Shown here in pieces: positions 11,791-64,000 of a stretch of 64,000 nucleotides of DNA. The translations under genes and the position numbers were made by a program. The stretch spans positions 43,890,890 through 43,954,889 of the forward strand of contig OX387183.1 of the NCBI GenBank assembly GCA_947561395.2, written 5' to 3'. The DNA is from Buxus sempervirens (Eukaryota; Streptophyta; Magnoliopsida; Buxales; Buxaceae). The stretch's first letter is position 1. Each line of letters opens with the position of its first letter. Below the pieces are notes generated by a model that was not told where the DNA came from, searched no databases, and saw only the letters and a list, made by a program, of their open reading frames with translations.

Positions 11791-11799
11791 AAGATTCTT
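11791..11799. repeat. Left 9 bp target duplication of the MULE
   Basis: AAGATTCTT directly precedes the TIR and recurs exactly at 32934-32942 after the right TIR. Nine bp is the typical length for Mutator-like elements. Confidence 0.95.
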
Positions 11800-32933: not shown

Positions 32934-32942
32934 AAGATTCTT
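32934..32942. repeat. Right 9 bp target duplication of the MULE
   Basis: Exact copy of AAGATTCTT at 11791-11799. Confidence 0.95.
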
Positions 32943-35200: not shown

Positions 35201-36307
35201 TGTTGCTTTGAAATTGGGCCGGTGTGGACACGTGTCGGTGTTGATAATGTGTCTCTACGCGGGCGTGCCAGTATCGTTTGATACAATGATTTTGGGTCGA
35301 GCCCTGACCCCGGGCACCTGTTCCGAATCTAAACCTGGATCGGTTCAGTCGTACTGCAAGTCACCTGTAATAAAATCGGTCAGGCGATGATATGAAGACT
35401 AGGGGTTCGGTCTTCGTTTGGGTTCTTATAAGTGTTTGAAAGCGAAAACAACTAATGGCATACAAATCCTTTATTATGAAATCGGCCGACGGGCTGAAAG
35501 CGACAACAGATAATCCTCAAAAGGGAAACAAAAAGTAAAAAGAAAACTGACAGGGCTTGCAGGACCGGCTGTCTTGGTCTTATAGCCGTAATCGGATATA
35601 AGCACAGGAGGAAGGGGCGGCTGCTAGCAAAGCCAATCCAGGGGGTTCACCTTGGATTGCTGCTTACCCGAAAATACACAAGTCACCTGGCTTGATCAGA
35701 GTGAGTTTCGAGATCGGTTGCTCGGGATTCTGTAAACACAGAACTGCGAGTCAGGGGCGGCCTCAACTTACCCTCCGGTGGCAGGATTCTGGTGTTAATT
35801 GGAGTAAAGAGGGGTCTAAGATGCACTGCGACTGGAAGCAGTGAAAGCAGTCCTAGTTTATCCTTCTGACTACAGTGTAGGAGAGGGGATAAAGATCACG
35901 GATGATCAAAATAATATTATAACCGGTTGCGGTTGTGTGGATTGTGTCCTCGAGTTCTTCGAAGTTGTGTCTTTTATAGTCGATCCTTGACGGTTGCTCA
36001 ACATCCTACTCTTGCACGATCTTCATGGTGGTTGGCCGTCTTCAGTCTTTTGCTCCAGAAAGATAACTGCCCGGCCACGATTTTAAATAGGTTACTTTCG
36101 AACGACCGATGGCACGATCTTCTGATAGTTGTGAATGAGGTTTGTCGTATTGGCTTGTGTGGCTTTACCTGTATTCTTGGTTTATGCGAATGCTGACATG
36201 GCTTGTCCAACTGTGCAAAGCCTACGTAAGTTGATGCCATGGCCTAAGTAAGCCACATAGGTACCACGTGTTCCTCTCTTATTCGTTGGTCATATAGGGT
36301 GTAAACA
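35201..36307 (-). repeat. 3' LTR of the Tat-lineage element
   Basis: Starts TGTTGCTTTGAAATTGGG and ends GGGTGTAAACA on the plus strand. Collinear with 53173-54282. Adjacent on the internal side is TTGCCCATCTAC, the complement of a purine tract (GTAGATGGGCAA), the likely polypurine tract. Confidence 0.93.
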
Positions 36308-36540
36308 TTGCCCATCTACTTATTTATTACGCCGTCATCAGCCGATGTGATGAGTAAGTATTTTGGGTTTTTCAAAATATGTCCGTTGCTTGATGTGAAA
36401 GATTTTGCCACTTTCCCACGATCTAAATGATGAGACTTTTCTGGTTTCATCTTCCACTTTGCTTAAAAAGTACTGCAGCCAAAATTTTCACTTTCCTTGT
36501 CTCTTTCGGCTATTTGTCTTCTCTTCTCCCCTTTTCTTCA

Positions 36541-39513
36541 ATGGCGGGTAATATCATATGCTATACTTCTACGGTCGAAGTTTTCGATGGCTCGTTATCT
36601 GTCGGTCCCTTCCTTTGTGCTCGTGATGCTCATTTGGATGCCCTGACTGAAAGAGTGAGGGGTCCCTTACTTTTCACTTATGGGAGCAGTTTCAATAAAT
36701 CTTCCCGTTTTCGGAGTTGGCCGACCGTTTATCCTGAATGGGTAGCCTGGGTCGACAGGATGAAAGAGCGTTTTGCAGTTATTTGGCGTAAAACTGGTAT
36801 TTATGATATGATCCATTTTTCTTGTCGCTCTATTCCTTTGAATCGCGAGCTTCTCTGTTCCATGAGTTTATTCTGGAATGCCTAGACCAATCCTTTCAAC
36901 TTTCCTTGTGGGCCGATGACCCCCACTGTCATGGATGTTTGCTTCATTACCAGCTTCCTCGCAACTGGTCATGAGGTCCGGGTCGGCATGGCAGATCTCC
37001 AGAATTGCCAGCATTTACCTCTGGTGGAGGTAGGTGAGAAGGGAAAAGAGGTGGTAAAGAAAAAGAAGCAACCCCTCGTGAAGGAGAAAAAACCCTCTAA
37101 GAAGGCGGGATCCTTGCAGCAGAAAGGGATTGTTTTGTCAGGAAGTAAACCTCAACAGACGGATACGATCCGTACCTCTTATCGGTCCTATATCAAGGAT
37201 TGTGCGAAGTTTCAATCTCCAGATTACGAGGATGATGTAGAACACTTCTACTTCCTTCTTTACTTCTTCTGTAATTTCTTATTCTGCTCCAAAGCTCAAG
37301 CGGTTACCAGAGAATACTATTCACTGGTTAAGCTTATTCTGGGTGAGTATGAAGTCGCTCTTGCTCCCTATTTTTTGTCGGTCTTATACCGTTCACTTCA
37401 ATAATTTATCCATGGCACCCTTCAGACTCCTGGGGAACCGTTGTGGTTTCTCAAATTTTTGGCATGCCACTATTTTCCGTCCAAGTTTTATACTCGGGTG
37501 CCGAATCCTCCTAATGTGCCTCCTGAGTTTGGTGGTCACGCCTGTTTTCTGAATGCTTTCTTTTCTTTTTTGGTCTTCGTCATTTCCCCAAACCTCCTTT
37601 CAAAGTTTCTGCTAATGCCCCCGGTTTCCTTTCTATGGTGGATGATATAACCGATGCTTAACATCTTATCTGGGCCAGCTTTCTGATAGCCCGGAATTTG
37701 AATTATGCTGTGAAGTCAATGAACAAGAAACCGGGATTCGAAGTCTATTTGCCGAATTGTATAGGTCGGCAATTCCAATGTGACCAGAGGATCCCCTTGC
37801 TTGATATGGATGGTCTGTTTACCATTAATACCAGCTCCATTGAACGACCATCTGTCACTGCAGTTGACGCTACTCGAATGGAAGAGAGTTATAGCACAAT
37901 TGCTGTCGATTTTCGTCTTCCCTTTCTTCCTCCTCATGATAGTTGCAGCTCTAATTTTCATGTATGGTGGGATTCGTTTTGGAGTGGAATCTGCTGCCAT
38001 CCGGCCGATTATTATCTCGAAAGATTGGGTCTGCTTGAGTCTTTGCATGCACCGATCCAAGAAGGTATATTCTCCTCTTCCTTGTTTCCGATTTATGTGA
38101 TGCTAATTCAATTATTCAGCCACCAGGTGAAGTATCGTCTCTAGCTTTAGAAGCTTATACTTCTCCTCCAAGGGAATTGGCCGAGGATGATGTTTTCTCG
38201 CCAGAATGCCCTGCCTCGCCGATTGTTCCAGATGAAGATCCCGATGACGTCCCATTACGACGGCGTTCTAGGAAGGTGTTGAATCTTATAGATTTCTTAT
38301 TGTTCATTCTTCTTCTTTTGTCTTTTCTCTTGACACACTATTTCTCTAGGTTTCAAGTTCCTTGGGTCCGGTCACTCTTTCTTCCAATGTTATGGAATCT
38401 TCTTCAGATCCAGTTGTTGATCCTATGTTTGTTTTGGACCCGGCCGATTTCGTCGATCCTATCGAACCAATGGATTCTCTTGGTAGTGCCATTGGTGAAA
38501 TTCCTTTAGCACTTCCTGAAGGTCAGGAGCATTTTTCTCCTCGACAAGACTCTTCAGAGAGAGGTTCTTCTCCAGAACTGCCTCCAGGGTATGAACAGGA
38601 GGCTGCCCCTCCGATAGCTGAAACCACTACGTCTACTGCCTCTATTGGGACTTACATTCCCCCGGGTCCTTCTGCTATGACCGATATCCCCCTAGGTTCT
38701 TCTGCCATAAGGGCGGGAGATGATTTTGACCGGCCGAGGCAAGCGCTCGTTGAATTAGGGAGCACCAATTCATATCTTGCTCCCGTATCTGTTCCTGACG
38801 CGGGACTTCTTTCTCATGATGGGCGAGGGCGATTGGGTGTGATGTTAAATGACGTTCGGTCCAATTTTCTGTCGAGCAGTTCTACTGATCCTTCCTCTTT
38901 ATCTTCAAGACGTATTCGATCAGGGATTATCTGCATTCTTGCTTCGGGCATAGTCGGTATTTCAGAGGAAACTCTTACTCGTTTGGTGGCATTGGCAGCA
39001 AAGCTTAATGATATTCCTTCGGTGTCTTCTGACGTAAAATCGGTGTTCTCCCGACTTTCTCTCCTTTATTCTCATAAAGTTGTTTTTGACCATCATTCGG
39101 TCAAGATACATGAAATAACCAATGCGGCCGATTCTGTTAATGGCCGATATCAACTTTTGCAACAACTGAAGAATGAACGTGAGGCTTGTCATCATCAGTA
39201 TATGGAAACGGTCCACCGTGTGAACACCATAAATAGTAATATTGCGGATCTTGATCGTCATATTGCAGAGTTGCAGTCTAAGAGGTTTGAACTCGTAAAT
39301 CAACGGGAGGAACTCCTCCATACTAATGAAGTCGCTGATGATGCCATGAAGGAAAAGACCCGTCAGTGCAAAGAAATTGCCCGTGAGCTGGAATCGGACA
39401 TAGAATTGGCTCGAGATTCCTTTCTACTTCGGTCCACTCTGGAAGATGAAAAACAATTTGCCCAAGATTCCTTTGGCCGTATATGTTCTGAAATTTTAAA
39501 CACATCTTTGTAA
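36541..39513 (+). pseudogene. Antisense ORF 1 of the Tat element: PMD-like plus coiled coil, 3 exons
   Basis: Antisense to gag-pol. Exons 36541-38064, 38127-38275 and 38350-39513 have GT-AG borders and fit in phase. The first exon carries in-frame stops at 36883 and 37402 and a frame change near 37660-37700. It encodes a plant-mobile-domain-like region: SWPTVYPEWVAWVDRMKERF, then GPMTPTVMDVCFIT, then ALAPYFLSVLYRSLQ, a stop and WFLKFLACHYFP. Exon 2 is acidic. Exon 3 ends in a long coiled coil (NTINSNIADLDRHIAELQSK and onward). PMD-like antisense ORFs are known in Tat elements. The function is unknown. Confidence 0.8.
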
Positions 39514-39857
39514 AGTGTTTAATGAATTCAAATCCTTTTTTGAAATCCATGTGCCAACTATCATGGCCGTCAGAATCGGCCCCTTTTTTGACAAAACCTA
39601 TCTTTTCAAATCGATTCGTCCGTATGATTTTTACTTTCAGAATGCTTTAATCGAAAAGATATTCAACCGCCGTTTCAATTTCTTCGGGAAGGCAATCGTA
39701 CCATCAGCACTTTTTTTCGGGAAGACAGCAGTCTTATCAAAGCCCTTTTCGATACTTCGAATCATTACGAATCTTTCTCTATCGGCAGACGTTTTCCTAT
39801 TGCGCTTCGTCTTCCTTCTCTTTGCGATCTTCCTTTGTCTGGTTTCTGATATTGATC
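39514..39857. other. Spacer between the two antisense ORFs
   Basis: Holds the 3' end of antisense ORF 1 and the presumed promoter of antisense ORF 2. A short ORF crosses it with no recognisable domain. Confidence 0.5.
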
Positions 39858-42625
39858 ATGGCGGACGAAAATCCTAATGACTTGAATCTGTTTGGCGATG
39901 GTGAAGATGGACCTGTTCTCGGTCCATGCACTAATGTAGAGACGGTAGAGGCCCCCACTGTCATGCGTTCTTCTTATCACTTAATCGATGCTCATGACAA
40001 CGTGAAGTGGGGTTCTCTGATTCTGCTTCCTCGTTCTTGGCCTAAGCTTTCTCCTGAGTGGAACAAGTGGGTTGACAGGCTACGGCCTTATCACATGGAA
40101 ACCTGGGTTAGACTTGGATTGGCGGAGATAATCTTTTACTCCACCTTCTACATTCCCTTCAATCCCTTCTTGCTTGGGGTGGCTTCATTTTTCTGGTGTC
40201 GGGGTTCCAACACCTTCTCTTTCCATCATGGTCCTATGACTCCCACACTCCTGGACGTCTGTTGTATTACTGGCCTTTCGGTTCTTGGAGAGGAAATAGA
40301 TTCCAGTCTATCTCTTTTCCCATCTTCTGTTTTTAATACCGTCCATACTTCTTTTGCTTTTGGCACCTTTGTTTGTGCCGAGTGTGTTTCAGATGATGAC
40401 ACTCCTCCTTCCTTTCAAGAGCACTGTTCTTTTTTGCTGTTTCTTCTCTGCCATTTTTTCTGTTGTGGCCCATCTGCTCAGATGGTAAAGGAGTTCGCTG
40501 GTATTGCGATGGCCCTCGCTTAGGGTCGCCGTCTGGCTTTAGCTCCTTTTTTTCTCAGCTAGGTCTATCGTGGCCTTCATAGTTTATCTTCCTGCCGATT
40601 AGGGGTAGCTACTGGCCCTCTCTAGTTCTTACAATTTTGGTTCTATGAATACTTCCCCAGCTTCTTCTCTGAAGCTGTAGATAATCATTTTCCTGATTAT
40701 TACTATGCCGGTCATCGTTGGCTTACCGCGACGCCCAGGCAATTGTCTTTTAGAGCCGTTCTTGATTTCTTTCTTGTGGGTATATAGGAAGCAAATCTAC
40801 CCTTATTTCACTGCTTTTCCTTAGAGCAATTCCATGGGTACCCTCTTTATGCTGCCATTAATTCTTCTCCTGAGGCTCGTTGTCGTGCTATGGCTAGTTT
40901 TCTCATTGCACGGGAGCTCCCTTTTGGCTTGCATAACCGGGATGCTCCTGCTACCTCCAGAAGAGAAGGAGTAGAAATTTATCTGCCGCATTTTGTCAGC
41001 CAGCAACTTGGATATGGCCAAGGCATTCCTCTTGTTTTATTCCCATTTACCAATGGTGACTCTCGGTCAGTCCTCAATCCCAGCTATCTGTCGTTAGCTA
41101 ACCGTCAGTTTCATGACCTTTCTGATCGTTTCCGCAATTATCTTTTTCCTCGGGAATCCTCGGCCGAACCTTCCTTTCGGAGATGGTGGGCTCGAATTTA
41201 TCCTAACTTTGTCAGGCTTGATCTGGAGTCGTATGCTACGCTTTTTCGGCCGACCGCGGCCGATGTTGCGAGTATAGGGAAATTCCGTGGGCATTATGAG
41301 GCTCACTACTCAGGTAACTCTCTCTTACCTTCTTGCGATTTTATTTTTTTATATTCCGTTGATTCTAATCTTCTCAACATCCACTAGATGGTCATCGGTC
41401 GACCAGTGAGAAAGGCAAGAAAAAGAAAGCCCAGATGACGCTGACGGTCACCGTCTGTTGGAGGCGACCTTCGAAGGCTACTGCTAGTCGGAGTAACCTT
41501 TCCTCCAAAACCTCGCCATTGAAGAAGCGGAAGATCAGCGGGATATCCAGTAGCCGTGCTTATGTCACTCGATCCAGTATGCGATTTCGGGTTCAACACC
41601 TGGATGAACATATCACTGTGGCTAATGATTCTTCAGATGAGGAGGAAGATATTGATTTATCTCGCCCTCAGCATGGGCCTCCCGTTGGTTTTGGAAGTAG
41701 TGGTCTATCGTCTCCCATGCCGACTCCTCCCCGTGCATTCTATTATGTTAGCCCTCCATCACATCCTTCAACTAACCTTGTCACCTCCCTGGCTGATCCA
41801 TCGCCTAGCGCGTCTAGGCAGGTTCCTCTCATCCCTTGTCCTGGCCTTGATGAAGCCGGCCCGTCCACTTTCCCTGGCGTTTCTTTACCGGATTCATCTT
41901 CTGATGAATTACCTTCTGAGCAAAAAATCCCTGTGGTCGATGAAGATAATTTTAGACCTCTTCCTGGCACTTGCTTTGGATTCGTCAGATCATGTTTCAC
42001 GGAGGTAGATTGTTGTCTTGCATCTCCAGAATTCTATGATCTTCGTCCAGAATTTCTTCCAGGTTTTGATAGTCGGGACGAACTCCACTCTTTTGTTCTT
42101 CGTCGACCTAAAGATCTTTCTGATGATGAACTGGCTGAAATCCGATTGTTAATATGTTGAGCTGCGGTGACGAATTCTCATGGAGATCTTACGGCCGAAG
42201 GTCGGCTAATGTCTATGCTCGGATTTTACAGCACTGTGCCGCAGCTAAGAGAAGCTATGGACTTTCTTCGTTCTGTCAATATGAGATGCTCCGACTTTTG
42301 CCGAGAAATTCATGAGGTATTCAGTCATCATCGTCAACTAGAAGCTTTGAGGCAGAATCTATGTGCCAATTCTCTCGATCAGGCCTCTATTGCTGGTAGT
42401 CCATTGGCGGCTGCTCCGGCCGAGTTATCTCGACTCCGATCTGAGGAACAACGCCTTAAAGAATCTATTAAGGCTCAGTGGATGCTGATTGAGTCAAGCT
42501 GTCATCGCTTGGAGAAGCACATGAGAGATGAAAGGGAGGTGGAGATACGCCGGGCTGAGATGCAGTTCTTGTTGGAGCTGGCGAAGTATGATCATGCCCG
42601 ATTTAAAACTTGGTTTGAAGGGTAA
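39858..42625 (+). pseudogene. Antisense ORF 2 of the Tat element: PMD-like plus coiled coil, 2 exons
   Basis: A diverged paralogue of antisense ORF 1, in the same orientation. Exon 1 is 39858-41313 and exon 2 is 41388-42625 (GT-AG, in phase). It reads SWPKLSPEWNKWVDRLRPYH, then GPMTPTLLDVCCITGLSVLG, then LALAPFFLS followed by stops, then LWFYEYFPSF, the same order as ORF 1. Exon 2 begins with a lysine-rich segment (EKGKKKKAQ), continues with a proline/serine-rich stretch and ends in a coiled coil. In-frame stops occur at 40521, shortly after it, and at 42158. Both ORFs start with ATGGCG and are introduced by similar sequence, which supports tandem duplication. Confidence 0.8.
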
Positions 42626-43573
42626 GATCTTTAAACAATATACCGTTTGTTCGGTATTAACTTTTCGATGATAATGCCATGTGGTTGGCATTTTAAACTT
42701 ATTTAGCCGGTTTCTCGGCTTCTTTATTTGAATGGTAGTTTCTTGCATATTTTTAGATGCGTAATATACTCGTTTTATTTTATACCAACTGCTCGCTACA
42801 GAAAGACTAAAATATGAAACAAGAACAATCAAAATGCATTTATTTCAACATTGATCTTTCATACAACCAAAGCCGAGCTCTTTTGGCTCTTTCATACAAC
42901 CAAAGCCAGATGTTTCAGCTGGGGCCTGATAATTCAGCCGAGACCGGTATGTCCCTAAAATTGCTCTACACGCCAATATGGATGGCGTGAGCGAAGGGTA
43001 GTTTAATCAAAGGGACAAGAGGGAAGAGGGAGGAATGGCGAATACTCCGACCGGCGTAAATGTTGGTCAAAGAAGATAACTCTCGTCTCTACACAGACCT
43101 TGGTGGTAGAAGACCTACCGTGATGGGGTCAACGAGAGTAGAGCCGCCTTTTCCAATTCCGCCCATTCTTATGAAGTAATCGGCTTTGTCGACTTCTTCT
43201 TCTTCGATCATCTCCTTAGTCCGTAGTCGGCCTTTGATCACTCGCCATTTCTTTTCCTTCATATTACTTAGCTTCCTTTTCTTGAAAGAATGGAGAACAT
43301 CTCCTTTAGTATTTATAGACCGAACGTTTAGAGGAAGATCAATGGGTTTGAGCGGATCTCGAAGAGATCTTCTATTTCAGTCTAATCTGCACCGTATACT
43401 GTCGGCACTTCGATTTGACAATGCCATTTATTTGGCGTTGCGGGTACCGAGCAGTAGGTATTTATTTTATTCCTGATTTTCCTCAGGTTGGTTATCGATT
43501 TGGTGGCTTTCCCATAGAGTGGGAAAATACCGTTTTAAAAACTGGCCGTTGATAATCTTCTTTTCTTGGCCAT
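42626..43573. other. Noncoding stretch between antisense ORF 2 and pol
   Basis: The two convergent reading directions meet here. A short direct repeat containing CTTTCATACAACCAAAGCC occurs at about 42857 and 42890. No domain is visible. Confidence 0.5.
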
Positions 43574-46500
43574 CTAATCACTATATATGGTATGCCCCCC
43601 CCCCCCCCCCCCCCCCCCGGGAAAAACCTTGCTAACTTGCAATGGTCCTTCCCATGTAGGTGACCACTTTTCGTACAAAGAGTCCTTCCCTATCGGCAGA
43701 AGGGTTTTCCACACTAAATCCCCTTGAGCAAATGACTTGTGTTTTACTCGGCGGTTATACAATCTAGCAATTCTTTGTTTAAGTGCCGTCTGTCGGTCTA
43801 GGGCTAGCCTCCTCATTTCTCCCAAGTCCTCTAGCTCAACTAACATTGCTTCCGTGTAATCCTTGGGAGTGAAATTATTTTGAATAGCCACCCTCAAAGA
43901 TTTGACCGTGATCTCCACTGGAATAATTGCCTCATGGCCGAAGGTTAAGGCAAAAGGGGTAGTTCCAATAGACGTTTTGTAAGACGTACGATACGCCCAC
44001 AATGCTTCAGATAGAAGTTTATGCCAACTTCTTGGCTTATCTTCAATCATCTTTCTCAGAATATTCTTCAACACCTTATTGGTTGCTTCAGCCTGCCCAT
44101 TTGCCTGTGCGTAATAAGGTGTCGATTGAATCATTCTTATGCCATATGTTTTGGCAAATTCAATCATTTCCTGTCCCACAAAAATGGTGCCGGAATCGGT
44201 CGTAATGGTTTTTTGGATGCCGTATCTGTGAATTATCTGCTCCCTGATAAACTTGATCACATCAGATTGTTCCACCTTTTTCAAAGGTTTGGCTTCCACC
44301 CATTTGGTGAAGTAATCGATAGCTACTATGATGAAATTATGTAGCCCAGATAAAGGAGGATACACCTTTCCAGTTAAATCCATTGCCCATCCTTTGAAGG
44401 GCCATGGTTTGACTATTGGTTGCAACTCGAGTGCTGGTACCCTTTGAACTGGTCCATGTTTTTGACATTCTTGACACCTCGTGGCAAATGTTTGGCAATC
44501 TTTCAAAATTGAAGGCCAGTAATAACCATGCTGACGTAATAACCATCGCATCTTGATTCCAGCTTGGTGTGCGCCACAGACCCCTTCATGTACTTCGGCC
44601 ATTACTAACATGGCTTCGGTAGGGTTGACACATCTAAGTGGGATGTCATCAATACTCTTTTTGTATAGCTCGCCGCCCAGAATGAAATAGTTGGCGGCTT
44701 TTCTTTTGGTTGATCTGCTAGTCTTCACAGTAGGATCTTTAAGATATCCCCAGATTTCACCTCTCCAATCCTGTCGTATTGTCTGATTACAACATGCCAG
44801 TGAATCCACCAAAAATGGTCTTTTCTCGGAATTAGGGAGAGATTGTATAGTCACCGTTCTGACTGGATCGCGTAGCCTGAGTCCGGATGCCAAATGGGCC
44901 AATTCATTAGCTTGGTAATTTTATTTCCTTGGTCGATTTTCAAATTCAATTCTATTGAACTGCTGGGCCAAGAATCTCGCCTTCCACAGCAAGAGTACTA
45001 ACGACTCACTATTGCAGTTATATATGCCCTCCATTTGCTTCAAAACTAGATGGGAATCCCCAACAATATTGACCGCTCGAGTACCCATTTCCCATAGAAT
45101 TTCTAATCCTATGATCGTAGCTTCAAACTCTGCTTGATTATTCGTCGACAATTCTTCGAGTTGAAATGCATGTTCATGTTTATCGCCAGTTGGTGAAGTT
45201 ATTACTACTCCGATCCCAGAAGCGAATTCTGTTTTTAAACCATCAAATTCCAGTGTCCATGGTTGGAATTCAGCATAGCAAAAACTAGCATGAAACACTG
45301 GAATATCAAGTTCTTTCTCTTGTACGCTAGATGGATGATCGGCCAATGCTTGCCCTTTTACCGCTCTCTGTGGTACGTATTTGAAGTCAAACTCCATCAG
45401 GGTTAGGGTCCATTTCCCAAGTCTACCACTCACCGTGGGTCGAGTGAGCATATACTTAACCACGTCATTGGCTGCTATGACAAAAATCTATCTGGCTGAA
45501 AGGAGGTAATGTCGCAATCTGGTAGCCACATAGTAAAGTGTGAGACACAACTTCTCCAGATTGGTGTACCTTTCTTCTACCGGAGTAAGAAATCTGCTAA
45601 GATAATAAATGGCCTGCTCAAACCCTTGATCGTTTTCTTGGGATAGCAATACTCCAATTATATCATTCGCAGTGGCAATGTAAAGCATTAGTGGCCGTTC
45701 TTTTGAAGGTGGCACTAAGACCGGTGGCGTTGCCAAATATTGCTTAATTCTTTCAAAAGCGGCTTGGTGTTCCTCATTCCAAATAAATTCTTCAGTATCC
45801 ATGATCTTTAGCAATGGAGATAGAACCCTGATCTTTCCGGCCAAGTTTGAAATGAATCTCCTCAAGAAATTCACTTGGCCGAGCAATCTTTGTAGTTGTT
45901 TTTTATTGACCAGTGGCTTGGCTTCTATGACCGACTTTGCTTTATTTTTGTCAACTTCTATTCCTCTTTGGAGCACGAGAAAGTCTAGGAAATTTCCAGC
46001 TGATACACCAAAAGCACATTTTAATGGGTTCATTTTCAAACTGTACTTTCAAAGTCGCTCAAAAACCCGCTTTAAATGTTGCAAGTGGTCCATTTCGGTC
46101 GTAGATTTTATTACCACATCGTCAATATATACCTCAAGTATTTGACCGATCATATCATGGAAGATAAGATTCATTGCCCTTTGATACGTTGCACCAGCAT
46201 TTTTTAACCCGAAGGGCATAACTACCCAACAGTAAGTTCCTAGTGCTCCAAGACAACGAAATGCCATTTTAACTACATCATCTTTGGCAAAAAAATTTTG
46301 ATTATAACTAGAGTGGCTGTCCATAAATGACAAAAATTTATGCCGTGATGCGTTATCAACTAAGAGATCAACAATCGGCATTGGATATTCGTCCTTGGGT
46401 GTTGTAGAATTCAGATTACGGAAATCAATACATACCCTAATTTGACCATTCTTCTTGATTACAGGCACAACGTTGGAAAGCCAATCAGCATACTGTATTG

Positions 46501-47044
46501 GCCTAATGAACCCGACTGATAAAAGCCGTTCTATTTCAACCTTTACTTTACATATCACATTGTCACCCATCCTCATTGAAGGCTGTCTGAATGGTCAAAA
46601 TTATGGCTTGATAGAGAGCCTGTGTTCTACCATTTTTAGATCCAACCCTGGCATCTCTTGGTAAGTTAAGGCAAAACAGTCCGAATATTCGGCCAAAAAT
46701 TGTTTCATTTCTTGTCTGACCGAAGGTGGTAGTAATTTGCTTATGAAAACAGGCTTTCGTTCCGCTTCTATCCCTAAGTTGATTTCTTCTAATGGATCTT
46801 GGGTGTCTACCTTTAGATCTTCTAGCTTGGCTAGTGCTGCTTGCAGATCGGCGAGAGTAATCTCATCCCGATCTTGTATCCTTTCATCATCTTGTTCATT
46901 GATGAATTCGGCTGAGTTTATCATTATCTCGCCGTTTCCCAGCCATTCCTGATCCTGTTGCAATTTCCCTACCTTTTCTTCCTGCATGTAAACCGTCATC
47001 TTTCTTAAGACGGCTTTTGCAACTTCTGATGGTTCAACCATCAT
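43574..47044 (-). pseudogene. Tat pol: RT, RNase H, archaeal-type RNase H, integrase
   Basis: One frame on the minus strand, broken by stops at about 46601, 46049, 45488 and 44921. RT comes first: RVCIDFRNLN, FMDSHSSYNQ (usually FMDGYSGYNQ) and YIDD in LEVYIDDVVIKS. A gypsy-type RNase H follows (AFERIKQYLATPPVLVPPSK). Then comes a second, archaeal-type RNase H: Asp in WTLEFDGLK, Glu in NNQAEFEATIIGLE, Asp in NIVGDSHLVLKQ. The integrase has an HHCC finger (EVHEGVCGAHQAG, CQTFATRCQECQ) and DDE residues in MDLTG, TTDSGT and GQAEATNK. The double RNase H is diagnostic of the Tat lineage. A run of 24 C (43595-43618) lies in the last codons. Confidence 0.92.
43595..43618. repeat. Homopolymer of 24 C
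   Basis: Uninterrupted C run on the plus strand at the 3' end of pol, read as a glycine string. It could be slippage or an assembly artefact. Confidence 0.9.
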
Positions 47045-48021
47045 TTGGTAGTTCTTTGAGTTCGACGACTCTGGCTACCTCTATAAGCCGTTGTTGTGCT
47101 GTTTGTAGTATAGCCGAACTTGAAGCGATCGGCTGCCCGTTCTTGTCATATCCACTAAATGAAATAGGTTTTACCCCTTCGTTATAAAGGGATGCATGTG
47201 CGGCATTGGAATCTACGGCAAATGGTCGCTTGTCGGCTTTTACTTCTTCGATCTTGCCATCTTTCCAAATTAGCAACGATTGGTGTAAAGAAGATGGTAC
47301 ACATCTATTCGAATGGATCCAATCTCTTCCCAGCAATGCGTTGTATCCGGCCGATGATTCAATCACGAAGAATGCCGTGAGAGATTGCCGTGCCCCAACC
47401 GTTAGTTCGATTGGGAGGATTCCTCTAGTTCCTGTAATACCCCCTGCAAAGTTAGTAACAGTGATTGCGGAAGGAATTAAATCCAAATAAGACTTACCTA
47501 GCTTTTTCAGTGTGGAGATCGGGATGAAATTTATTGCTGCCCCATTATCAATTAGAATTCTATTGATAGGGATCCCGTTCATGTGCGCCTTTATAAATAA
47601 AGGTCTCAGATGTTGAGTCATGGCTAAGGATGGTTTTGTTAACAAAACATACCTCTTCAACCGGACCAATTTGGTCACCATCGGCCGGTTTCTGGTCTTT
47701 TTTCTCTTCCTCAAGTTGTTCCGGATCGATCACATACAAAGCTACTGGGTCCTCTTCCTCATTGATCTCTTCTAACCGTGGTAAATCCACACTCACGTCG
47801 AAAGTCATGGGTAAAGTGAGGACCATATGACAATCAAGTGGAATCGGGGGCATCCGGCCGAAACAAATTTCAGCTATTGATGCATCAGCACTCAAAGGGG
47901 GTTGACCCAGTGATTCGCTGATCTCATCTTTCGGAGTTTCGAGCGTCAATTCCTCGGTTATTTCTACCGTAGAGGGAGTCGAAATCCTACTATATTTAGT
48001 TAACAATTGTTCAACTAACAA
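47034..48021 (-). pseudogene. Tat protease region (aspartic protease)
   Basis: On the minus strand, HMNGIPINRILIDNGAAINF contains the active-site Asp of a retroviral-type protease as D-N-G; the family usually has D-T/S/G-G. The region continues TVTNFAGGITGTRGILPIEL and LLGRDWIHSNRCVP, as in Tat proteases. 48021-47560 is the acidic linker before it. Frames change near 47700 and again near 47040 relative to pol. Together with the stops, this makes it inactive as it stands. Confidence 0.85.
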
Positions 48022-48965
48022 CTATTCTCCTTCCCCTTAGGCAAAATTGTCCGTTAGATCATCGTCAAAAACCAGCCTTTCATTTACTGCATCGGAACTC
48101 TGTTCGGGTGCAGTATCTGGGGCAACTGATGAACCGGGCAATGGGCTCTTCACGAGCTTTTGTGGTTTTGGAGTGCACCTTTTGGCGACAAACCTGGATG
48201 ACCAATATGGTTCGGAAGATCCAGTACTTTGTTCTTGGTATCGTCTCTTAGCTTGCTGTCGCTGCCAACGTCACTTCTGTGTTTTGGTTAATTTTGTGAC
48301 ATTTCCCTTAGCATAGAAAGGAAATTTAGGACGAGTCAATCTTTTCCAGTGACCATCCCGAATAATAGGGGGTTTTACCATCCTGGGCTTGACCCTGTTT
48401 ACCATCATATATTGTTCATGGGTCATATAGCCGCTTTCCCAAGCTGAGCTATATGTGGCTGCCGTCCTTGTCAGCGAGCCTACTTGCCTTCCAGAAGTTA
48501 AGTAGAGTGGTCTCTTGCCCCCTGAGTATGGCGTGCATCTTCATACTTGACGGATTTTCCTTTGTTATACTGAGTATGCTGGTATCCTGTTATCACTTTT
48601 TGCCTGCACTCTTGACAAAGGTGATCTGGTGATACTTCTATTTTCTCCAAAATCTTGCATGATGCATCCTTATTAAAGGAAGAATCCTCTGAGGATTTAG
48701 CAACCGTTTCCGGTCGCTTTCTGGTTGCAACTTGATTGGAAGATAATTCAAAAGAATCCGAAGCCAATTTCTTTGTTATCATCTCGTTAGGATCTCTCTT
48801 TCTGTTCTCTTCCGTCCTGGGCTCGTGCCTGGACTAATGCCACCATTAACCCCAGATTTCACCTCTCCTTTCTTGACACCATGATCGTCCTTGTGTGGGT
48901 GGATACTTCCAATAGTTTCTTGGTTGCAAGTTCACCTGGTTCTGAACTAGTTGTGTTCTTTTCCC
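48022..48965 (-). pseudogene. Decayed gag-to-protease linker
   Basis: Only broken frames. A stretch at 48498-48782 is in the expected position for the end of gag, but no zinc knuckle is recognisable. Confidence 0.5.
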
Positions 48966-49402
48966 CTATTTTTCCGATGAGGATCCGTCCAAGTCGACTT
49001 TAACTGCTGGAGTGCGTTTTGGCAAGCCAATGGTGACCATATTCGCCGATACCTCTTTAGGGAATGGTTGTGTGTCAACCTGCATCTTCCCTTTGTCTGC
49101 CTCCACAAACTTCAGGAGTCCTTTATCAATATTCTCCTGTATCACATTGCGAAGCACAGTACATTCATTAGTTTCGCGAGTTTTCATTCCGTGCCATTTA
49201 CAAGCTTTACCCTTGGCCGCTACATTGGCCAAGATAAAAGGATGGTCTTTGGTTAGCCTGAAGAATCCTTGCTTTAGAAGGTATTCAAATATTTCAGCCA
49301 TCTTATTTATGTCAAAGGAATAATTTCGGCTAAAAGTATTTGTCTCTTTTGTCGGTTCTGTATCCTTGGTTTTTCGGATAAGAATCGGACAGGTAATTGA
49401 TT
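48966..49402 (-). pseudogene. Tat gag, 3' part
   Basis: Continues gag beyond the solo LTR insertion in the same frame: FEYLLKQGFFRLTKDHPFI and CKWHGMKTRETNECTVLRNV, sequence usual in the C-terminal part of Tat gag. It ends at a stop at 48966. Confidence 0.8.
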
Positions 49403-50284
49403 GTTTTTGTAAGACCCTGATTTTTGGTGAGTTATTTATTTATTTAGTTATTTATTTTGATATATAAACTGTGTTTATCAGGTGATTTTTGTGGTTTGAG
49501 GGCTTAGCCCATACTCGCATGTACAGGCGTTATATAGCCAATTTTTCTGGAAAATTTTATTATTATCATTATTATTAGGAAAGTATAGTTGTGTGCTTAT
49601 TAACGTAAGTGGATGCGGAACATGTAGTGTTTCCAGTGGGCGAGCACGCATAGGATCAAGGAGTTAAAAGATTAATCGAGCGGCGTATGTATCGCAAGGT
49701 AAATGTACAAAAAGGGAAAGTAGGGTTTTGGGTTTAAGGGAATATGCGTATCATACTTACGGAAACATTGTTCGTTAGTCTGATATTCAGGAGAACCAGC
49801 TGGAGTGGCGATTAGGGTTCTGCTCGTGAAGAACCAGGATCGCAAGGGGTAAGAGACGGATCTTGAAGTTGAAGTTGAGTGGGTTATTTCTCTCTGCTCG
49901 AGACGTATTGTTTGGGTAGATTCTGTACTCGCGTGCATGGCCGGAGTGGTGATCGACCGAGGTTTTGCTATATTCTGGAATAAGCGCATTCATGTGAGTA
50001 GCACTGATTTACAACTGGGTTTTGTGTTTGATGTTTTCGTGGGCTTATTCTTATGCATGGTTTGTATTTTAAGTGATGTATGAGTTTTCTGGTTTTCTTC
50101 TGGTTTTCTGGAATGACATGAAACAGAGTCGGAGATTGAATTTTATCTTGAAATTAAAAGTGTTTAGATTAAATCCAAATATGGTTGGGAAGTCTTCTGG
50201 GAGTACTAGGAGGGTATTGGAGCAATAACAGACCGAAACAAACCAGCCAGAGATATAGATCTCGAATTTACAGAGAACTGGAAA

Positions 50285-50560
50285 TCGCAAGGGGTATCCG
50301 CGAACCTGGCGCCCACTAGTGCTCACCTCTTAGCTAGACGCCCCGTTAAAATTCGACTTACCGCCGAGCTCGCGCGAACCCGGCGCTCAGCTCGCGTGCA
50401 CTAGAAAACCGGCCGCTCGGCTCGCGCGAACCTGGCGCTCAACTCGCGCCTATCTCGCGCTTACTTAGCGTCGAGTGAGCGGAAGCAACTTTTACCCTAT
50501 TTTTCTTACCGCCGACCGACGTCCACCTAGCGCCCACTTCAGCAAGTGAGCGCCTACCCT
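50285..50560 (+). repeat. GC-rich degenerate repeat in the solo LTR
   Basis: Many short units of the form GCGCTCAGCTCGCG, GGCGCCCACT and AGTGAGCGC, which can pair with one another. The copy at 62990-63260 has the same character with different exact order. Confidence 0.7.
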
Positions 50561-51163
50561 ATTTTACTTACTGAAATAGAAATCTGATTTAGCCAAGAGT
50601 AATTGGGTGTCTTAAGGGTTAAACCACTTCACTATTAACTTGTTTGGGAACTTTGGGATCTACTTTGCCTATGAAAATATTAGAGGAAAATTTAGTTAAC
50701 TTCTTAAAAGCTTCCAAGTTGAATTTAGGTTATTTATGATTGTTGTGCCGGATGCCAAACCACTAAGAGTTACCAGTTACATTCACTCTGTTTTATACAC
50801 TGTTTTGATTGAGGAGTTATTCTATTCTGGTTTCACTTGTTTGGAGACTTTAAATGTCTTGTAAGGATTTCCTTGGTATGAATAAATTGAGTTTTGTTTC
50901 CGAATGGCATGTGTTACGAAAATGAGAAAATGCTAAAAGTACTTGAGATACTGCTTGGTCCAGAGGGACAGGTGATGCACTGTGATGGGTTTTACATGAT
51001 GTGGAATGAATAGTTTTACCTTGATATTGGAATTGTGATTATACGATGTTTTACTGTTTTGGTCTAGCTTGTCCTGGATCCAGATGGTTAAGCTTAGTAA
51101 TGTGATGTTATTGTTGGTTGTTGGAATTGCATGGCCTTGTGTGTTGCCACGACCGGTGTAGAG

Positions 51164-51287
51164 CAGCCAGAAACCCTGAGTAGGCCTGGTTGTCAATGCA
51201 GAAACCCGGGGAGTAGGCCTGCATTGGATGACGAAACCCTGAGTAGGCCGTCATTTCAGAGTATCCGAAACCCTGAGTAGGCCGGAA
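51164..51287 (+). repeat. Four-hairpin array in the solo LTR
   Basis: Four units share the loop AAACCCTGAGTAGG (unit 2: AAACCCGGGGAGTAGG). The stems differ: CCAG with CTGG (51167-51189), CAATGCAG with CTGCATTG (51194-51226), ATGACG with CGTCAT (51228-51254), and TCCG with CGGA (51264-51286). The loops are conserved while the stems vary but stay complementary. Confidence 0.9.
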
Positions 51288-51900
51288 CTGTGTACATGGA
51301 GGTGTGGAGTGTCTACTTGGCATGTTTAATTTATCAACTAAACGATAGTCATGACATTGACCAATCGATGTGTTGCCGTACTTAACTGAGATGTGATTTG
51401 TTTGATTAGAACAAATTTTGATTTGAACTTGGGAATTGATGTTGGTTGTTAATCCGTATTGAGTGTTTGTCGATGCATAGTTTTAAATTGTGGTCAACTA
51501 TTTCTGCATCCATGTGCTACTCGCTGAGATATTCGTATCTCACTTCGTTGTTTGTTTTGTTTGTTTTCCAGATACTCGTGGTGAGGCGATTATTGGGGTA
51601 GATTCTGCTAAGGCTTATAGGGAGGAGGATTACTATTACCTTCCTTAGACTTGTAGGTTATCTTGTTCTGAATTTGAGAACCTTGAATAATTGAGATGTG
51701 TTAAAGTTAATTGGGGTTGAACCATATGATTCTAGTTCAGTTTTAAATGTTACAATTTTGGATAAATCAAATTGTGCACTCTGTCAGGTTATAGCTAGAT
51801 GATTATCCAGCGATCATAATTGTTAAACGATCCTTGCCTAACCTCCGTGAGACGTGTTATATCTTTATTGAACAACACGGATCCGGGGCGTTACAGTTTT

Positions 51901-53123
51901 CCCACGACTTCCATGATACCGTATTCAAAGTCCGGGTCCCTGTAATAAGACTCGTAAGATGAAGCTTTCTTTTCGTTGTCTTCCTGCAACAGCCATTCAT
52001 ATTTGGCTGCTCTGGCCGACAACTCGAATAAGTCTTCGAACTGTTCACCTTCGAATTTCTTTCGGAGTTCAAAGTGTAGTCCGTTCAAGGCCAAATTTGC
52101 AAATTCCGATTCTAGTAAAAGAATTCGGCATTTGTTTTTCATATATTTAAAGCGAGCGATGTACTTATCGGCCGATTCCCCTGGTTGTTGTCTTAACCGA
52201 GCAAGATCAACCATGGTTACTTCGGGTTCCGTTCGATAAAATTGAGAGTAAAATTTCTCTTCCATCATTGCTCAATTTGTAACGGAATTGGCCGGTAATG
52301 TAATGTACCACGTAAAGGCCTGTCCGGTCAATGAATTTCTAAATAGTCTGAGTCTAAGGAAATCATTACCGGACGCCTCTCCACATTGAACCGTAAATCG
52401 GCCGATGTGTTCAATGGCAGACTGTTGACCTTCTCCTGAAAACAAAGTGAATTCAGGAATCTTGTATCCCCTAGGAAATTCAAATTACTGGTCAATCCAA
52501 CCTGGGTAAGGTTTCTGATAAACTGGCCTAGTCATTCGTCAGTGATATTGATCTCCGATCATCTCTTGAATTACATTTTGAATGTAATTACGATTTATAG
52601 CCATATTTCTTACCCCAATATCTTCTCTATGGTTCTCCTGTGCTTCCCTTTACCCCATTGGGCGTACCTCGATCGGAGGTACATTAGGAGGAATTGGGAT
52701 ACTAGGGGATATTTCTCCTCTGAAAGCAGCGGTATTGGCCAGTTCATTTCGGCCATTTCCATCCAAGTTCATGGGTGGTGGTTGCTTCGGGATATTTATC
52801 CTTTCATGAGCATTCGAACCAACAGCCGATGTTTTGGCTCGCTCGGCCATCATAGTCGGCCTTGCCATTGTGGAGAAACCTTCCTGTAAAACCGCTAGGA
52901 TTCTACCATTATCAGAAGAAATTTTGTAAATACCCTGACCAAAGCCTGCCATTTGTTGGCTAAGACCTTGTATGGCCTAGATAAGTCGTTCATTAAGATC
53001 CGGCTGAGAACTCGAAGGTCCTTCTTCCGGGACTTCTGAAACATAAAGAGGATTTACCTGAGATTTGGCAGGTTCCTCAGGCGTTGCATTTTCAGCATGC
53101 CGAGTACTTCTTCTTGCCGCCAT
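51901..53123 (-). pseudogene. Tat gag, 5' part
   Basis: Starts at the Met of MAARRSTRHAEN (53123), about 50 bp inside the 5' LTR. The gag core is at 52268-51901: VDLARLRQQPGESADKYIAR, FANLALNGLHFELRKKF, typical of retrotransposon gag. Upstream it reads FGQGIYKISSDNGRILAV. Several in-frame stops, no net frameshift. It is cut by the solo LTR after EVVGK. Confidence 0.85.
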
Positions 53124-53144
53124 TAATGCTCTTTCAAAGACTAA

Positions 53145-53164
53145 TGGTCCCACCGGGCGTGCCA
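53145..53164 (-). promoter_or_regulatory. Candidate primer binding site
   Basis: On the minus strand, eight bases after the 5' LTR, the sequence TGGCACGCCCGGTGGGACCA begins with TGG, the complement of a tRNA CCA end. I cannot name the tRNA. Confidence 0.6.
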
Positions 53165-53172
53165 AAAAGGGA

Positions 53173-54282
53173 TGTTGCTCTGAAATTGGGTCGGTGTGGA
53201 CACGTGTCAGTGTTGATGATGTGTCTCTATGTGAGCGTGCCAGTATCGTTCGATACAATGATTTCGGGTCGAGCCCTGACCCCGGGCACCTGTTCCAAAT
53301 CTAAACTGGGATCAGTTCAGTCGTACTGCAAGTCACCTGTAATAAAATCGGTCAGGCGATGATGTGAAGACTAGGGGTTCGGTCTTTGTTTGGGTTATTG
53401 TAAGTGTTTGAAAGCGAAAGCAACTAATGGCACACAAATCCTTTATTATGAAATCGGCCGACGGGCCAAAAATGACAACAGATAATCCTCAAAAGGGAAA
53501 CAAAAAGTAAAAAGAAAACTGACAGGGCTTGCAGGACCAGCCTGTCCTGGTCTTAAAGCCGTAATCGGGTATAAGCGCAGGAGGAAGGGGGCGGCTGCTA
53601 GCAAAGCCAATTCAGGGGGTTCACCTTGAATTGCTGCTTACTCGAAAATATACAAGTCACCTGGCTTGATCAGAGTGAGTCTCGGGACCGGCTACTCGGG
53701 ATTCTGTGAACACAAAACTGCGAGTCAGGGGCGGCCTCAACTTACCCTCCGGTGGCAGGATTCTGGTGTTAATCGGAGTAAAGAGGGGTCTAAGATGTCA
53801 CTGCGACTGGAAGCAGTGAGAGAGGTCCTAGTTTATCCTTCTGACTACAGTGTAGGAGAGGGGATAAAGATCACGGATGATCAAATTAATATTATAACCG
53901 GTTGCAGTTGTGTGGATTGTGTCCTCAAGTTCTTCGAAGTTGTGTCTTTTATAGCCGATCTTTGACGGTTGCTCAACGTCCTACTCTTGCACGATCTTCA
54001 TGGTGGTTGGCCGTCTTCATTCTTTTGCTCCAGAAAGATAACCGCCCGGCCACGATTTTAAATAGGTTACTCTCGAACAACCGATGGCACGATCTTCTGA
54101 TAGTTGTGAATGTGGTTTGTCGTATTGGCTTGCGTGGCTTTACCTGTATTCTTGGTTTATGCGAATGATGACGTGGCCTGTCCAATTGTGCAAAGCCTAC
54201 GAAAGTTGATGCCATGGCCTAAGTAAGCCACATAGGTACCACGTGTTCCTCTCTTATTCGTTGGTCATATAGGGTGTAAACA
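53173..54282 (-). repeat. 5' LTR of the Tat-lineage element
   Basis: Collinear with 35201-36307, 1110 bp, starting TGTTGCTCTG and ending GGGTGTAAACA on the plus strand. Confidence 0.93.
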
Positions 54283-61321: not shown

Positions 61322-62989
61322 AGCATCTGTACCCTAACTTCGGACACTCATACCTTCATCATCCGGATGAATTTTGGAGTGATTTCAAAGACATGTGAAA
61401 GGTGAGGCTGTCTAGTTCTTGTCTGTAAAATTTCAGCCATTTTTATGAATTGGATTTTTGACACCATTTGATCAAAGTTAACAAGTCAGTTCAGGCCAGA
61501 TTGCTGAACCTGTCATTTTGACTGAGCACCACTTGCTCGATTTAAGTCCGATTTGAGTGATTTTTATTTCTGTGTTTTCCTTTATGAGTATACTTTCAAA
61601 TCCAATTGGTTTCAAAAAATTTTTATTTCATTTGTGTCTTGTGTGTCTAATTTATTCAGAACTGTCCGATAGCACAATTCTAGGCTGATCTGTGATCCGC
61701 TGGGCATGTTCATGAGGTCACATAAGTCACATCTGAATGAAGATTCATGTGAGGCTTATTTAATTTGAAAGATGGCATCTTGTACTTCATTCTGGCAAAT
61801 TTTCAAAGATTTATATGGAGCCAATTTTCACAAATAGGTTTTCAAAGTTGCTCACTTGCCACTTTTATAAACTTATAGCAGTGAATTTCCAAAAAGCATA
61901 GCTCTTAGGATTTTAATCAGATCTACCTGAAAATTTTCCTGTAAAATCCCGAATTTTAATAAAATTAAAATTTAGGATTTTATGCTTTTAAAACTTATTT
62001 AATTAAGGGAGAACTTTAGAAACAAAGAAAAGGAAATTAATTAGAGTTAATTTCAAAATGTTAAATAGGACGAATTATTAAAATGGGAAAATTTGGTTAT
62101 TGGACTTCCATGGATTTGGATTTTGGCGGTTCGGTGTTGGAACAAGTGGGGGTAGTCTTGGAATTTCCCAAGCCTAAATTATGAAGGTTTAAAATTAAGT
62201 TAAATAGGCATCAAATATTGGTTTAAATAAATTGATAATAGTGTGTTTGAAATTTATTATAAATTGGAAGGTGCTAATGTAAGGTCTTGGTGGAGTGGCG
62301 AAAATTAAAGAGTAGGGGTTGCCTAGGTAGGATGTTGCGGTGGATGAGCACGCACCAGATCAGAGTTAAAGTTCGTCGAGCGGCAAGTGTAATTGCGGAG
62401 GGTATAAATACTTTAAGAAATTAGGTTTTGGGTTTTTGCCCTAAATGCGCGTATAGTCTATTGAGGGGTTTGCGGCTGCGGCGTCTATTTAGGGTTCTTC
62501 GAGAGAAGGAGTTGAGGAAGTTTCTGCGGGAGAGTCGAGCTGAGGAAGATTTACCGCCAGTAGGTATTGGTTAACAAGAAGTTCGGAAAGGTTTTTCTTC
62601 CTTCAGGGAACCTCTGTTCGACCATAGCGAGCAGTCGGCCGAACTGCTGATTTGGGGATTTTCTCTTCGGGGTTGCCGATTGCCAAGACTTGGAAGCATA
62701 AAAAGGTGAGTGGCACTGTTTTACAACTGAATCTTTGGTTTATTCCTGTATTTGGTTTGAATGAATGCATGTTTATTGAATGAAGTATTCTCGGTTTCCT
62801 GGGCAAAGACAGTTCCGAAGGGTTTCGCACAGCGGAATTGGGGATAACTGGGAAGCATGATAGATTAAATCCAAATTAGGTCTGGAAGTGTTCTGGGGGT
62901 ATTGGGAGACTAGAGAAGTAGTTACAGACTGAAACAAATCAGCCAGACATAGAGATCTCGAAATAACAGAGACGTAAAAATCGCAGTGG

Positions 62990-63260
62990 GTATCCGCCCA
63001 CTTGGCGCCCACTTGCGCCCACTTCGGGAAGTAGGCGCCTAAGAAATCTGACTCGGCGCCGAGCTCGCGCTCACTTGGCGCTCAGCTCGCACCCACTTAA
63101 TTTAGATGCGCCTATCTCGCGCCCTTCTTGCGCCTATCTCGCGCCTATCTCGCGCCGAGCTCGCGCCCACTTACCATCGAGTGAGCGCATACCCTAGTTT
63201 TTACTTAAAACGATCCGCTCACTCGGCGCTCACCTGGCGCTCACTTCAGGAAGTGAGCGC
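62990..63260 (+). repeat. GC-rich degenerate repeat, second copy
   Basis: Units such as CTCGCGCCTATCTCGCGCC and GGCGCTCACCTGGCGCTCAC, ending with a pair TCAGGAAGTGAGCGC. Same position as 50285-50560 in the solo LTR. Confidence 0.75.
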
Positions 63261-63814
63261 ATAGTCCATCTTTCTTGTTGAAGTTCAAAATTGAGTAAAC
63301 CAATGGGGATTTTGATGCTAGAGGGTCTCCGATCACTTAGCGAAGTACTTGTTTAGGACGTTAGAGACAAAATTACTTATGAGAACAGTGAAGATAGATC
63401 CTGGAATTTCGTAAGAGCTTCTGAGGTAGACGTAGAGTAAGATTTAGGTGATGTTCGGGATACCCAACACTGGGGCTCTTATTTTAGTCCTTTTGGGTTA
63501 TACACTATACTGTACTTGATTGAGATTTATTAAACCCTGTTTTCTTGATGGCGAGTTCTGAATTATATTTCAAAGATTATTTACTTGTTTACTTGTGAAG
63601 AATTAATTGTTCTGGTTGGAACACTTGTGAAGAATTACTGTTCTGGTTGGAACAATTTGTGATATGTGTACTGAATGCGGAGTTTTGTTGGTTTTTATCG
63701 GTTTTTGGCTTAGCTTGTCCTGGATCCAGAGTCTAAGCTTAGTAATATGATGTATTTTGTTTTATTGGTGTAATGTCATGGCCATGGAATGTTGCCACGA
63801 CTGGTGTAGAGCAG

Positions 63815-63927
63815 CCAGAAACCCTGAGTAGGCCTGGTTGTCAGTGCCGATACTCGGAGTAGGCCGGCATTGGATGACGATACCCTGAGTAGGCCGTCAT
63901 TTCATAGTGTCCGATACCCTGAGTAGG
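63815..63927 (+). repeat. Four-hairpin array, second copy
   Basis: The same four units as at 51164-51287. In unit 2 the stem is CAGTGCCG with CGGCATTG (63842-63849 and 63865-63872). This keeps pairing although two stem positions differ from the other copy. Confidence 0.9.
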
Positions 63928-64000
63928 CCGGAACTGTGTACATGGAGGTGTGGATGTCGCTCTGGCATGTCGATTAACCAATTCAAGCAACTACATGACA

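Follow-up and report, generated by a model that had tools for sequence, protein, structure and literature searches.

The window, that is the whole stretch of 64,000 nucleotides of Buxus sempervirens DNA analysed here, contains two LTRs on the plus strand, each of which carries an array of four short hairpins.

49408 to 51895, plus strand: solo LTR, copy a, 2488 nt, TGTAAGACCCTG...GGGGCGTTACA, nested in a minus-strand Ty3/gypsy element
51163 to 51193, plus strand: hairpin 1 of copy a, arms GCAGCCAG / CTGGTTGT, loop AAACCCTGAGTAGGC
51194 to 51226, plus strand: hairpin 2 of copy a, arms CAATGCAG / CTGCATTG, loop AAACCCGGGGAGTAGGC
51227 to 51255, plus strand: hairpin 3 of copy a, arms GATGACG / CGTCATT, loop AAACCCTGAGTAGGC
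51260 to 51289, plus strand: hairpin 4 of copy a, arms AGT(A)TCCG / CGGAACT with one bulged base, loop AAACCCTGAGTAGGC
61940 to 64000, plus strand: second LTR, copy b, solo, extending to about 64595, some 595 bases beyond the window
63811 to 63935, plus strand: four-hairpin array of copy b, with a compensatory change in hairpin 2

Copy a is bounded by a 5-bp target duplication, GTTTT (49403-49407 and 51896-51900), and copy b is flanked by TTTCC and TTTCT, a 5-bp duplication with one mismatch. Both LTRs are solo, so they have no PBS or polypurine tract of their own. The element hosting copy a extends from 35201 to 54282, with LTR-like repeats at 35201-36307 and 53173-54282 that are 94% identical. 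Its pol frames are found on the minus strand at 43577-47729, including an RT piece that matches plant proteins among the named matches; at 39651-40520 a frame on the plus strand encodes a plant mobile domain. Copy a is located between the pol frames and the upstream LTR-like repeat of its host, an order from which we infer that it sits in the gag region. Being nested, copy a is probably younger than the insertion of the host element. With copy a this young, the divergence between a and b must stem mostly from active source elements, in which the array would have been kept meanwhile. Blast aligned the two copies in pieces, with 70% at 62861-63303 and 87% at 63703-63970 versus 51057-51325. Over 60-column windows identity reached 0.95 in the array region and 0.80 in a GC-rich block and stayed below 0.62 in most others, shuffled controls (n = 15) peaking at 0.60. 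GC-rich short degenerate repeats of the GGCGCTCAGCTCGCGC type (50305-50570 and 62990-63260) form part of this second most conserved block.

One relative was found in five pieces (L094/L093) encoding gag, zinc knuckle, protease, RT, RNase H, integrase and chromodomain in that order. The order and the common strand suggest that these pieces are one element, with the rve and Chromo matches scoring below their curated cut-offs (24.5 versus 32.6 and 23.4 versus 25.1, respectively). Copies a and b belong to one diverse Ty3/gypsy chromovirus group, with TG...CA ends and a 5-bp target duplication; the chromovirus relative is probably of the Tekay/Del lineage.

Two further features were noticed in the window. 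An inverted repeat of 1,225 bp that is 99.7% identical (11791-13015 and 31718-32942) encloses a MULE transposase frame (15278-17116) and may represent a large Mutator-like element of recent origin; for this candidate no target duplication of at least 8 bases was found. A minisatellite of 1.1 kb with 21/43-bp units (GGGACTCGAGCAAGTTTACAT) is located at 23760-24887.

Hairpins with a near-constant loop

The array of copy a (51163-51289, plus strand) consists of four adjoining hairpins that share the near-constant loop A[A/T]ACCCTGAGTAGGC on unrelated stems, as a sequence-only reading of this DNA had described. The loop is constant in three of the four units of copy a, unit 2 having AAACCCGGGGAGTAGG. 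In copy b the loop reads AAACCC in unit 1, ATACTCGG in unit 2, and ATACCC in both of the last two units. With cognate arms matched, each copy has 29 of 32 positions paired, compared to 24 (copy a) and 27 (copy b) for the best mis-assigned arms, and none of 20,000 random arm sets reached 29 pairs for copy a. Unit 4 pairs at seven positions only if a one-base bulge is allowed. All eight occurrences of GAGTAGGC in the window lie within these hairpins, and a covariance model built from the eight hairpins recovers them with no other window match below E 0.27.

Comparison of the two copies confirmed the covariation claimed for unit 2, where one A-T pair is changed to C-G on both sides and another A-T to G-T. 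Taken alone, the covariation between two copies is weak evidence, the chance that nine random substitutions leave every pair intact being P 0.024. In a stricter alignment made by hand from the five distinct stems of the window, 35 of 35 cells were paired and only 1 of 20,000 column shuffles was as good. Stems 3 and 4 of copy b are those of copy a, and the same A-to-T change occurs in three loops of copy b; such a parallel loop change would fit one common ligand.

Stem variation among copies across the genome

In the whole genome (676.5 Mb) the exact sequence CCTGAGTAGGCCG occurs 8,893 times (4,467 + 4,426), compared to 3 matches (0 + 3) for the reversed control. We took 30 loci, then 40 stretches (39 from contig C1 and one from C3) and then 8 more. 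Loci L059-L128 except L097 derive from the first of the exact 13-mer matches listed on contig C1, which biases the sample toward intact loops, and L129-L136 were obtained with an exon-junction query. The first 30 loci represent 17 distinct arrays. A fuzzy array search returned 71 array calls, 58 of them distinct, and two (L094 and L112) look like chance by eye. The 58 distinct arrays have 2-4 units, a count in which the fuzzy search misses units; five were found in L067. Three arrays on C1 (8882522, 8943549 and 9004577) are spaced by 61,027 and 61,028 on one strand with an identical PBS context after each, reflecting either a tandem duplication or an assembly repeat. In L116 (450-960) a constant-loop hairpin (GCATTCCG/CGGAATTG and variants) is part of a tandem repeat of about 118 nt in a satellite-like array.

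When hairpins were collected by their loop alone, with pairing unused and duplicate contexts removed, 213 distinct contexts with 77 different arm pairs were obtained. All seven pairs are kept in 179 of these 213 hairpins, allowing a one-base bulge. Replacement stems, changed on both sides and still paired, were found for units 1, 2 and 4, and for unit 3 in L071. Stems that replace one another are CAATGCAG/CTGCATTG, CAATGCCG/CGGCATTG and CAGTGCCG/CGGCACTG in one set; GCAGCCAG/CTGGTTGT and GCAATCCG/CGGGTTGT in another; and, in a third, AGTTTCCG/CGGGAACT together with AATATCCG/CGGATATA, the latter in the second domains described below. The loop varies as well, with ATACCC in 44 hairpins of the main type and AAACCC in 106.

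We also assessed covariation in an alignment produced with a covariance model and hence fitted to the structure. Matches were obtained from 64 of 79 sources (the window and L059-L136, leaving out overlapping loci, L090, L091 and L097); 150 of 197 were counted, giving 50 distinct rows. Pairing amounted to 87.0% compared to 71.2% after shuffling, and the covariation score was 0.347 compared to 0.111 for shuffled and at most 0.170 for slid alignments. The percentage paired, the number of cells changed on both sides and the covariation score exceeded the values of each of 500 shuffles and of all slides. As many pairs changed on both sides were obtained in 154 of 500 shuffles, and as many pair types in 70 of 500; in a separate shuffle test two covariation measures were also matched (30/500 and 24/500). 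Of the five measures, three thus stood out from the shuffles and two did not.

Stem changes in units 1-3 that affect one side only yielded G.T in 24 cases, A.C in 11 and another mismatch in 3, counting arms with up to 3 changes from four reference pairs, where each of the two common unit-2 stems served as its own reference. The remaining changes comprise one on both sides that stays paired, one on both sides that is broken and one from G.T to a Watson-Crick pair. Since G.T changes are commoner than A.C, the pattern is as expected of a sense-strand RNA, which tolerates G.T. Arm pairs seen at least twice were fully paired in 14 of 17 cases (three broken) and those seen once in 32 of 60, a marginal difference (p 0.048) that fits weakly with rare propagation of unpaired forms.

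Arrays without any function could have spread by recombination or exchange among thousands of LTRs, their likeness reflecting module swapping and recent copies. Mosaic hairpins that arose by recombination at the loops do exist, such as GCAGCCAG combined with CTGCATTG, CGTCATTT or CGGCATTG, and the unit number varies. However, swapping makes no new paired stems, each mosaic is single-copy in the sample, and the conservation peak described below persists between LTR types with strongly diverged flanks. We consider this explanation very improbable.

Conservation peak and predicted five-way junction

We aligned 16 diverse LTRs from about -850 to +600 of an anchor (position 0 corresponding to 51157; L071 was dropped as it has no anchor). 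The array part is the most conserved portion of the aligned stretch, with a mean pairwise identity of 0.82-0.94 over about 275 nt, a peak wider than the array itself; the rest is mostly at about 0.5-0.6. A lesser peak of 0.72-0.76 is found 325-400 nt after the anchor, near an acceptor-like site. The earlier claim of selection on a folded structure is supported by this conservation peak, by stems that change in a compensatory way in many copies, and by pairing and covariation that exceed those of the shuffled and slid controls. At the sequence level there is good support for stem covariation and for conservation.

The consensus fold predicted by RNAalifold for the 16 LTRs closes the hairpins by GTGTA/TACAT, CC/GG and CCAC/GTGG stems into a five-way junction. 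In copy a the predicted closing stem has two arms:

51147 to 51160, plus strand: left arm of the closing stem, CCACGACCGGTGTA
51293 to 51307, plus strand: right arm of the closing stem, TACATGGAGGTGTGG

Copy a (51146-51310) has this five-way junction as its minimum-energy fold, and the minimum-energy fold of copy b deviates between arms 2 and 4. The closing stem is paired in 94.9% of cells and in at most 72.7% when slid, slides omitting arm pairs of differing length. Closing-stem changes in first-type domains are nearly all wobbles. Some 300 nt beyond the first domain, four loci (L062, L120, L122 and L127) have another, diverged one that folds into the same five-way junction, with a shorter arm 3 in L062. 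In arm 3 of the second domains the stem is kept and the constant loop lost, the loop being reduced to GCT in L120, GTA in L122 and GCA in L127. L120 uses CCAATGTA/TACATTGG as the closing stem, and arm 1 of L120 and L062 has a different stem, CAGCATCAT/ATGGTGTTG. We therefore predict that the array hairpins are the arms of a five-way junction. Closing stem and second domain, together with the flanking splice-like sites described below, go beyond what had been noticed before.

Folding energies are mostly unremarkable and alike on both strands. Plus-strand arrays gave z-scores of -0.56 and -1.57 and plus-strand cores -0.38 and +0.17, with -2.72 for the minus strand of core b; second domains ranged from -0.95 to -3.7 (both strands, four loci). 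The fold depends on the stretch chosen: over 51050-51335 of copy a the pair probability drops to about 0.14 for hairpin 2 and about 0 for hairpin 4, and a longer stretch restores both. For hairpins 2 and 4 of copy b pair probabilities are mostly low.

The array could also act as a DNA element, either as cruciforms or as repeated protein sites (enhancer, chromatin or recombination) in which the constant 14-mer is bound. AAACCCT resembles the plant telomere repeat and the telo-box. In line with a DNA element, the primary sequence is highly conserved too, the minus-strand hairpins are about as stable and A.C pairs do occur. However, a binding site would not require flanks that are complementary and yet different from unit to unit, the loop motif varies to ATACCC while the stems remain paired, the sense strand prefers G.T over A.C and the predicted fold joins the hairpins in a larger junction. 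We regard a DNA element as improbable. The sequence-only reading had allowed for either RNA or a cruciform; the G.T preference and the sense orientation with a PBS downstream (see below) favour RNA, although the minus strand folds about equally well.

Dimerisation of the genomic RNA, another of the earlier suggestions, could proceed via loop-loop contacts or via the upstream palindrome CTGGATCCAG, which is identical in a and b. The loops contain CCT...AGG, able to pair between molecules. This inner pairing fits most units but is broken in unit 2, and we rejected the palindrome as the main idea since it is kept in only 6 of the 16 LTRs. Of all explanations considered we find dimerisation the most improbable.

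Splice-like sites and possible role

Relatives show PBS and polypurine-tract contexts, namely GGGGCGTTACA-GAGA-TGGTATCAGAGC in L096 and AGGAGGGGAGGA|TGTAAGACCC in L093. Because the PBS lies downstream of the LTR end in these relatives, the plus strand of the window is taken as sense. A PBS-like TGGTATCAGA directly follows 4 of 36 LTR ends, the others being solo LTRs, 3' LTRs or unresolved. In 33 of the 36 the last loop-like match is located 492-739 nt before the LTR end. Candidate signals were located in both window copies:

49994 to 49999, plus strand: splice-donor-like GTGAGT of copy a, starting a conserved 24-mer and preceded by CAT
51551 to 51571, plus strand: splice-acceptor-like TTTGTTTTGTTTGTTTTCCAG of copy a, the sole such site in LTR a on either strand, similar in relatives
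62403 to 62410, plus strand: TATA-like TATAAATA of copy b, about 1.4 kb before the array
62703 to 62711, plus strand: splice-donor-like AAG|GTGAGT of copy b, the window's single match to MAGGTRAGT (chance expectation 2.0)

A fuzzy donor search returned 28 rows, of which 19 were counted and 9 dropped: seven without a downstream array, L065, where the match is the hairpin loop itself, and L122, a poor match 341 nt before the array. All 19 counted array-bearing LTRs have GTGAGT, the preceding sequence differing strongly between types. The donor-like site has G at position -1 in 13 of the 19, and 15 of them have an acceptor-like site downstream of the array. Five of the 19 LTRs (L060, L084, L089, L096 and copy b) have a TATA-like box 290-303 nt upstream of the donor; in the remaining 14 none was seen at that distance. 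The donor-like 24-mer is present in 12 of 17 distinct three-kb loci (L062 included), with splice-like sites flanking the array; it was not found in the other five (L067, L071, L079, L085 and L087). Both sites are present in 17 of 21 rows, with distances from donor to acceptor of 1,392 to 1,941. These positions suggest a leader intron enclosing the hairpin domain.

No clear enrichment in U was seen for the putative intron. A search for intron-less LTRs, covering two of several exon-1 types, found none, with 0 matches at up to 3 mismatches for the a-type junction. For the b-type junction 90 matches were obtained compared to 9 for the control, all with 2 mismatches among the matches listed; in the initial search 40 of 1,543 candidates were scored. 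An absence of intron-less LTRs fits a lack of splicing and an exclusion of spliced RNA from reverse transcription equally well.

Rfam has no family at gathering score in the window and none at E <= 1 in 51000-51400. Arrays with paired stems were found in none of 58 loci from viral and genome contig collections, which are non-plant and silent on other plants. The later loop patterns had no matches in non-plant DNA collections, plasmids, phages and translated frames. Titles and abstract starts of the open-access literature contain no description of such a hairpin array, and a search for the loop letters in paper texts returned no plant-retrotransposon paper by title.

With moderate confidence we propose that the array is a structured RNA domain of the unspliced element RNA, serving as a multivalent docking site for Gag packaging or RNA export. 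The domain would typically consist of four short hairpins that present near-equal loops around a five-way junction in a probably transcribed part of the LTR. Lying inside an apparent intron of 1.4-1.9 kb in the 5' leader, it would be carried by the unspliced full-length RNA only. The docking site could thereby mark the unspliced genomic RNA, most likely for packaging by Gag, with nuclear export as an alternative. Several equal loops would allow cooperative binding, and the stems would be free to drift as long as pairing holds. A constant loop on changing stems, several times per domain, has the look of one ligand that is read repeatedly. Transcription, splicing, ligand and function of the domain are what we infer from these features, and the binding of Gag envisaged by the sequence-only reading is likewise kept as a candidate role.

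Alternatively, the domain might control how the LTR intron is spliced (its retention, or the efficiency of splicing) or how the leader is translated, and bind a host RNA-binding protein in place of Gag or an export factor. In most of the LTRs examined the domain does have a donor-like site before it and an acceptor-like site after it, and BARE is reported to draw on separate pools of spliced and unspliced RNA (PMC3735527). However, the sequence offers nothing that favours a host protein, and simple occlusion of a splice site needs fewer than several equal loops. We consider this alternative possible, though rather unlikely.

Retroviral packaging signals are located downstream of the splice donor, and the Rev response element has a multi-arm layout. 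An element of the RRE or CTE type would have repeated binding modules in a compact branched fold; here a five-way junction with repeated loops is predicted, and its fold is not stable in every stretch. The HIV-1 Rev response element and the M-PMV constitutive transport element are described as structured elements in unspliced RNA that act in export (PMC4488727, PMC4829213), and packaging signals of retroviruses as leader hairpins marking unspliced RNA (PMC7599994). Unlike these, the plant domain lies inside an LTR and repeats one constant loop; export and packaging roles are suggested here by analogy. In satellite tobacco necrosis virus, assembly reportedly favours a loop sequence whatever the stem, and several such stem-loops improve assembly (PMC3593212). 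The likeness lies in several stem-loops with a common loop motif; that virus is a plant satellite virus with a four-base loop, whereas here adjoining hairpins in a predicted junction are found in an LTR retrotransposon. BARE of barley, also a plant LTR retrotransposon, has spliced and unspliced RNAs, and dimerisation and packaging signals are mentioned (PMC3735527). BARE belongs to the Copia superfamily and has its intron in gag, whereas the intron proposed here would lie in the LTR; the BARE passages at hand contain no hairpin array. Retrozymes likewise place structured RNA in a plant LTR, according to extracts that describe hammerhead ribozymes (PMC4918200) located in the LTR (PMC9695139). 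They are catalytic and non-autonomous, whereas the domain described here reaches no Rfam threshold.

More specifically, and rather tentatively, we suggest that the branched RNA of the LTR intron sorts unspliced genomic RNA from spliced mRNA, similar to a packaging signal or RRE, and that its loops coevolve with one ligand. Little is known about how plant LTR retrotransposons sort their RNA for translation versus reverse transcription. A loop present thousands of times together with natural compensatory variants would make this sorting testable, with the loop as bait and the variants as ready controls. The findings suggest that a conserved branched RNA can reside in LTRs, which are usually regarded as promoter DNA.
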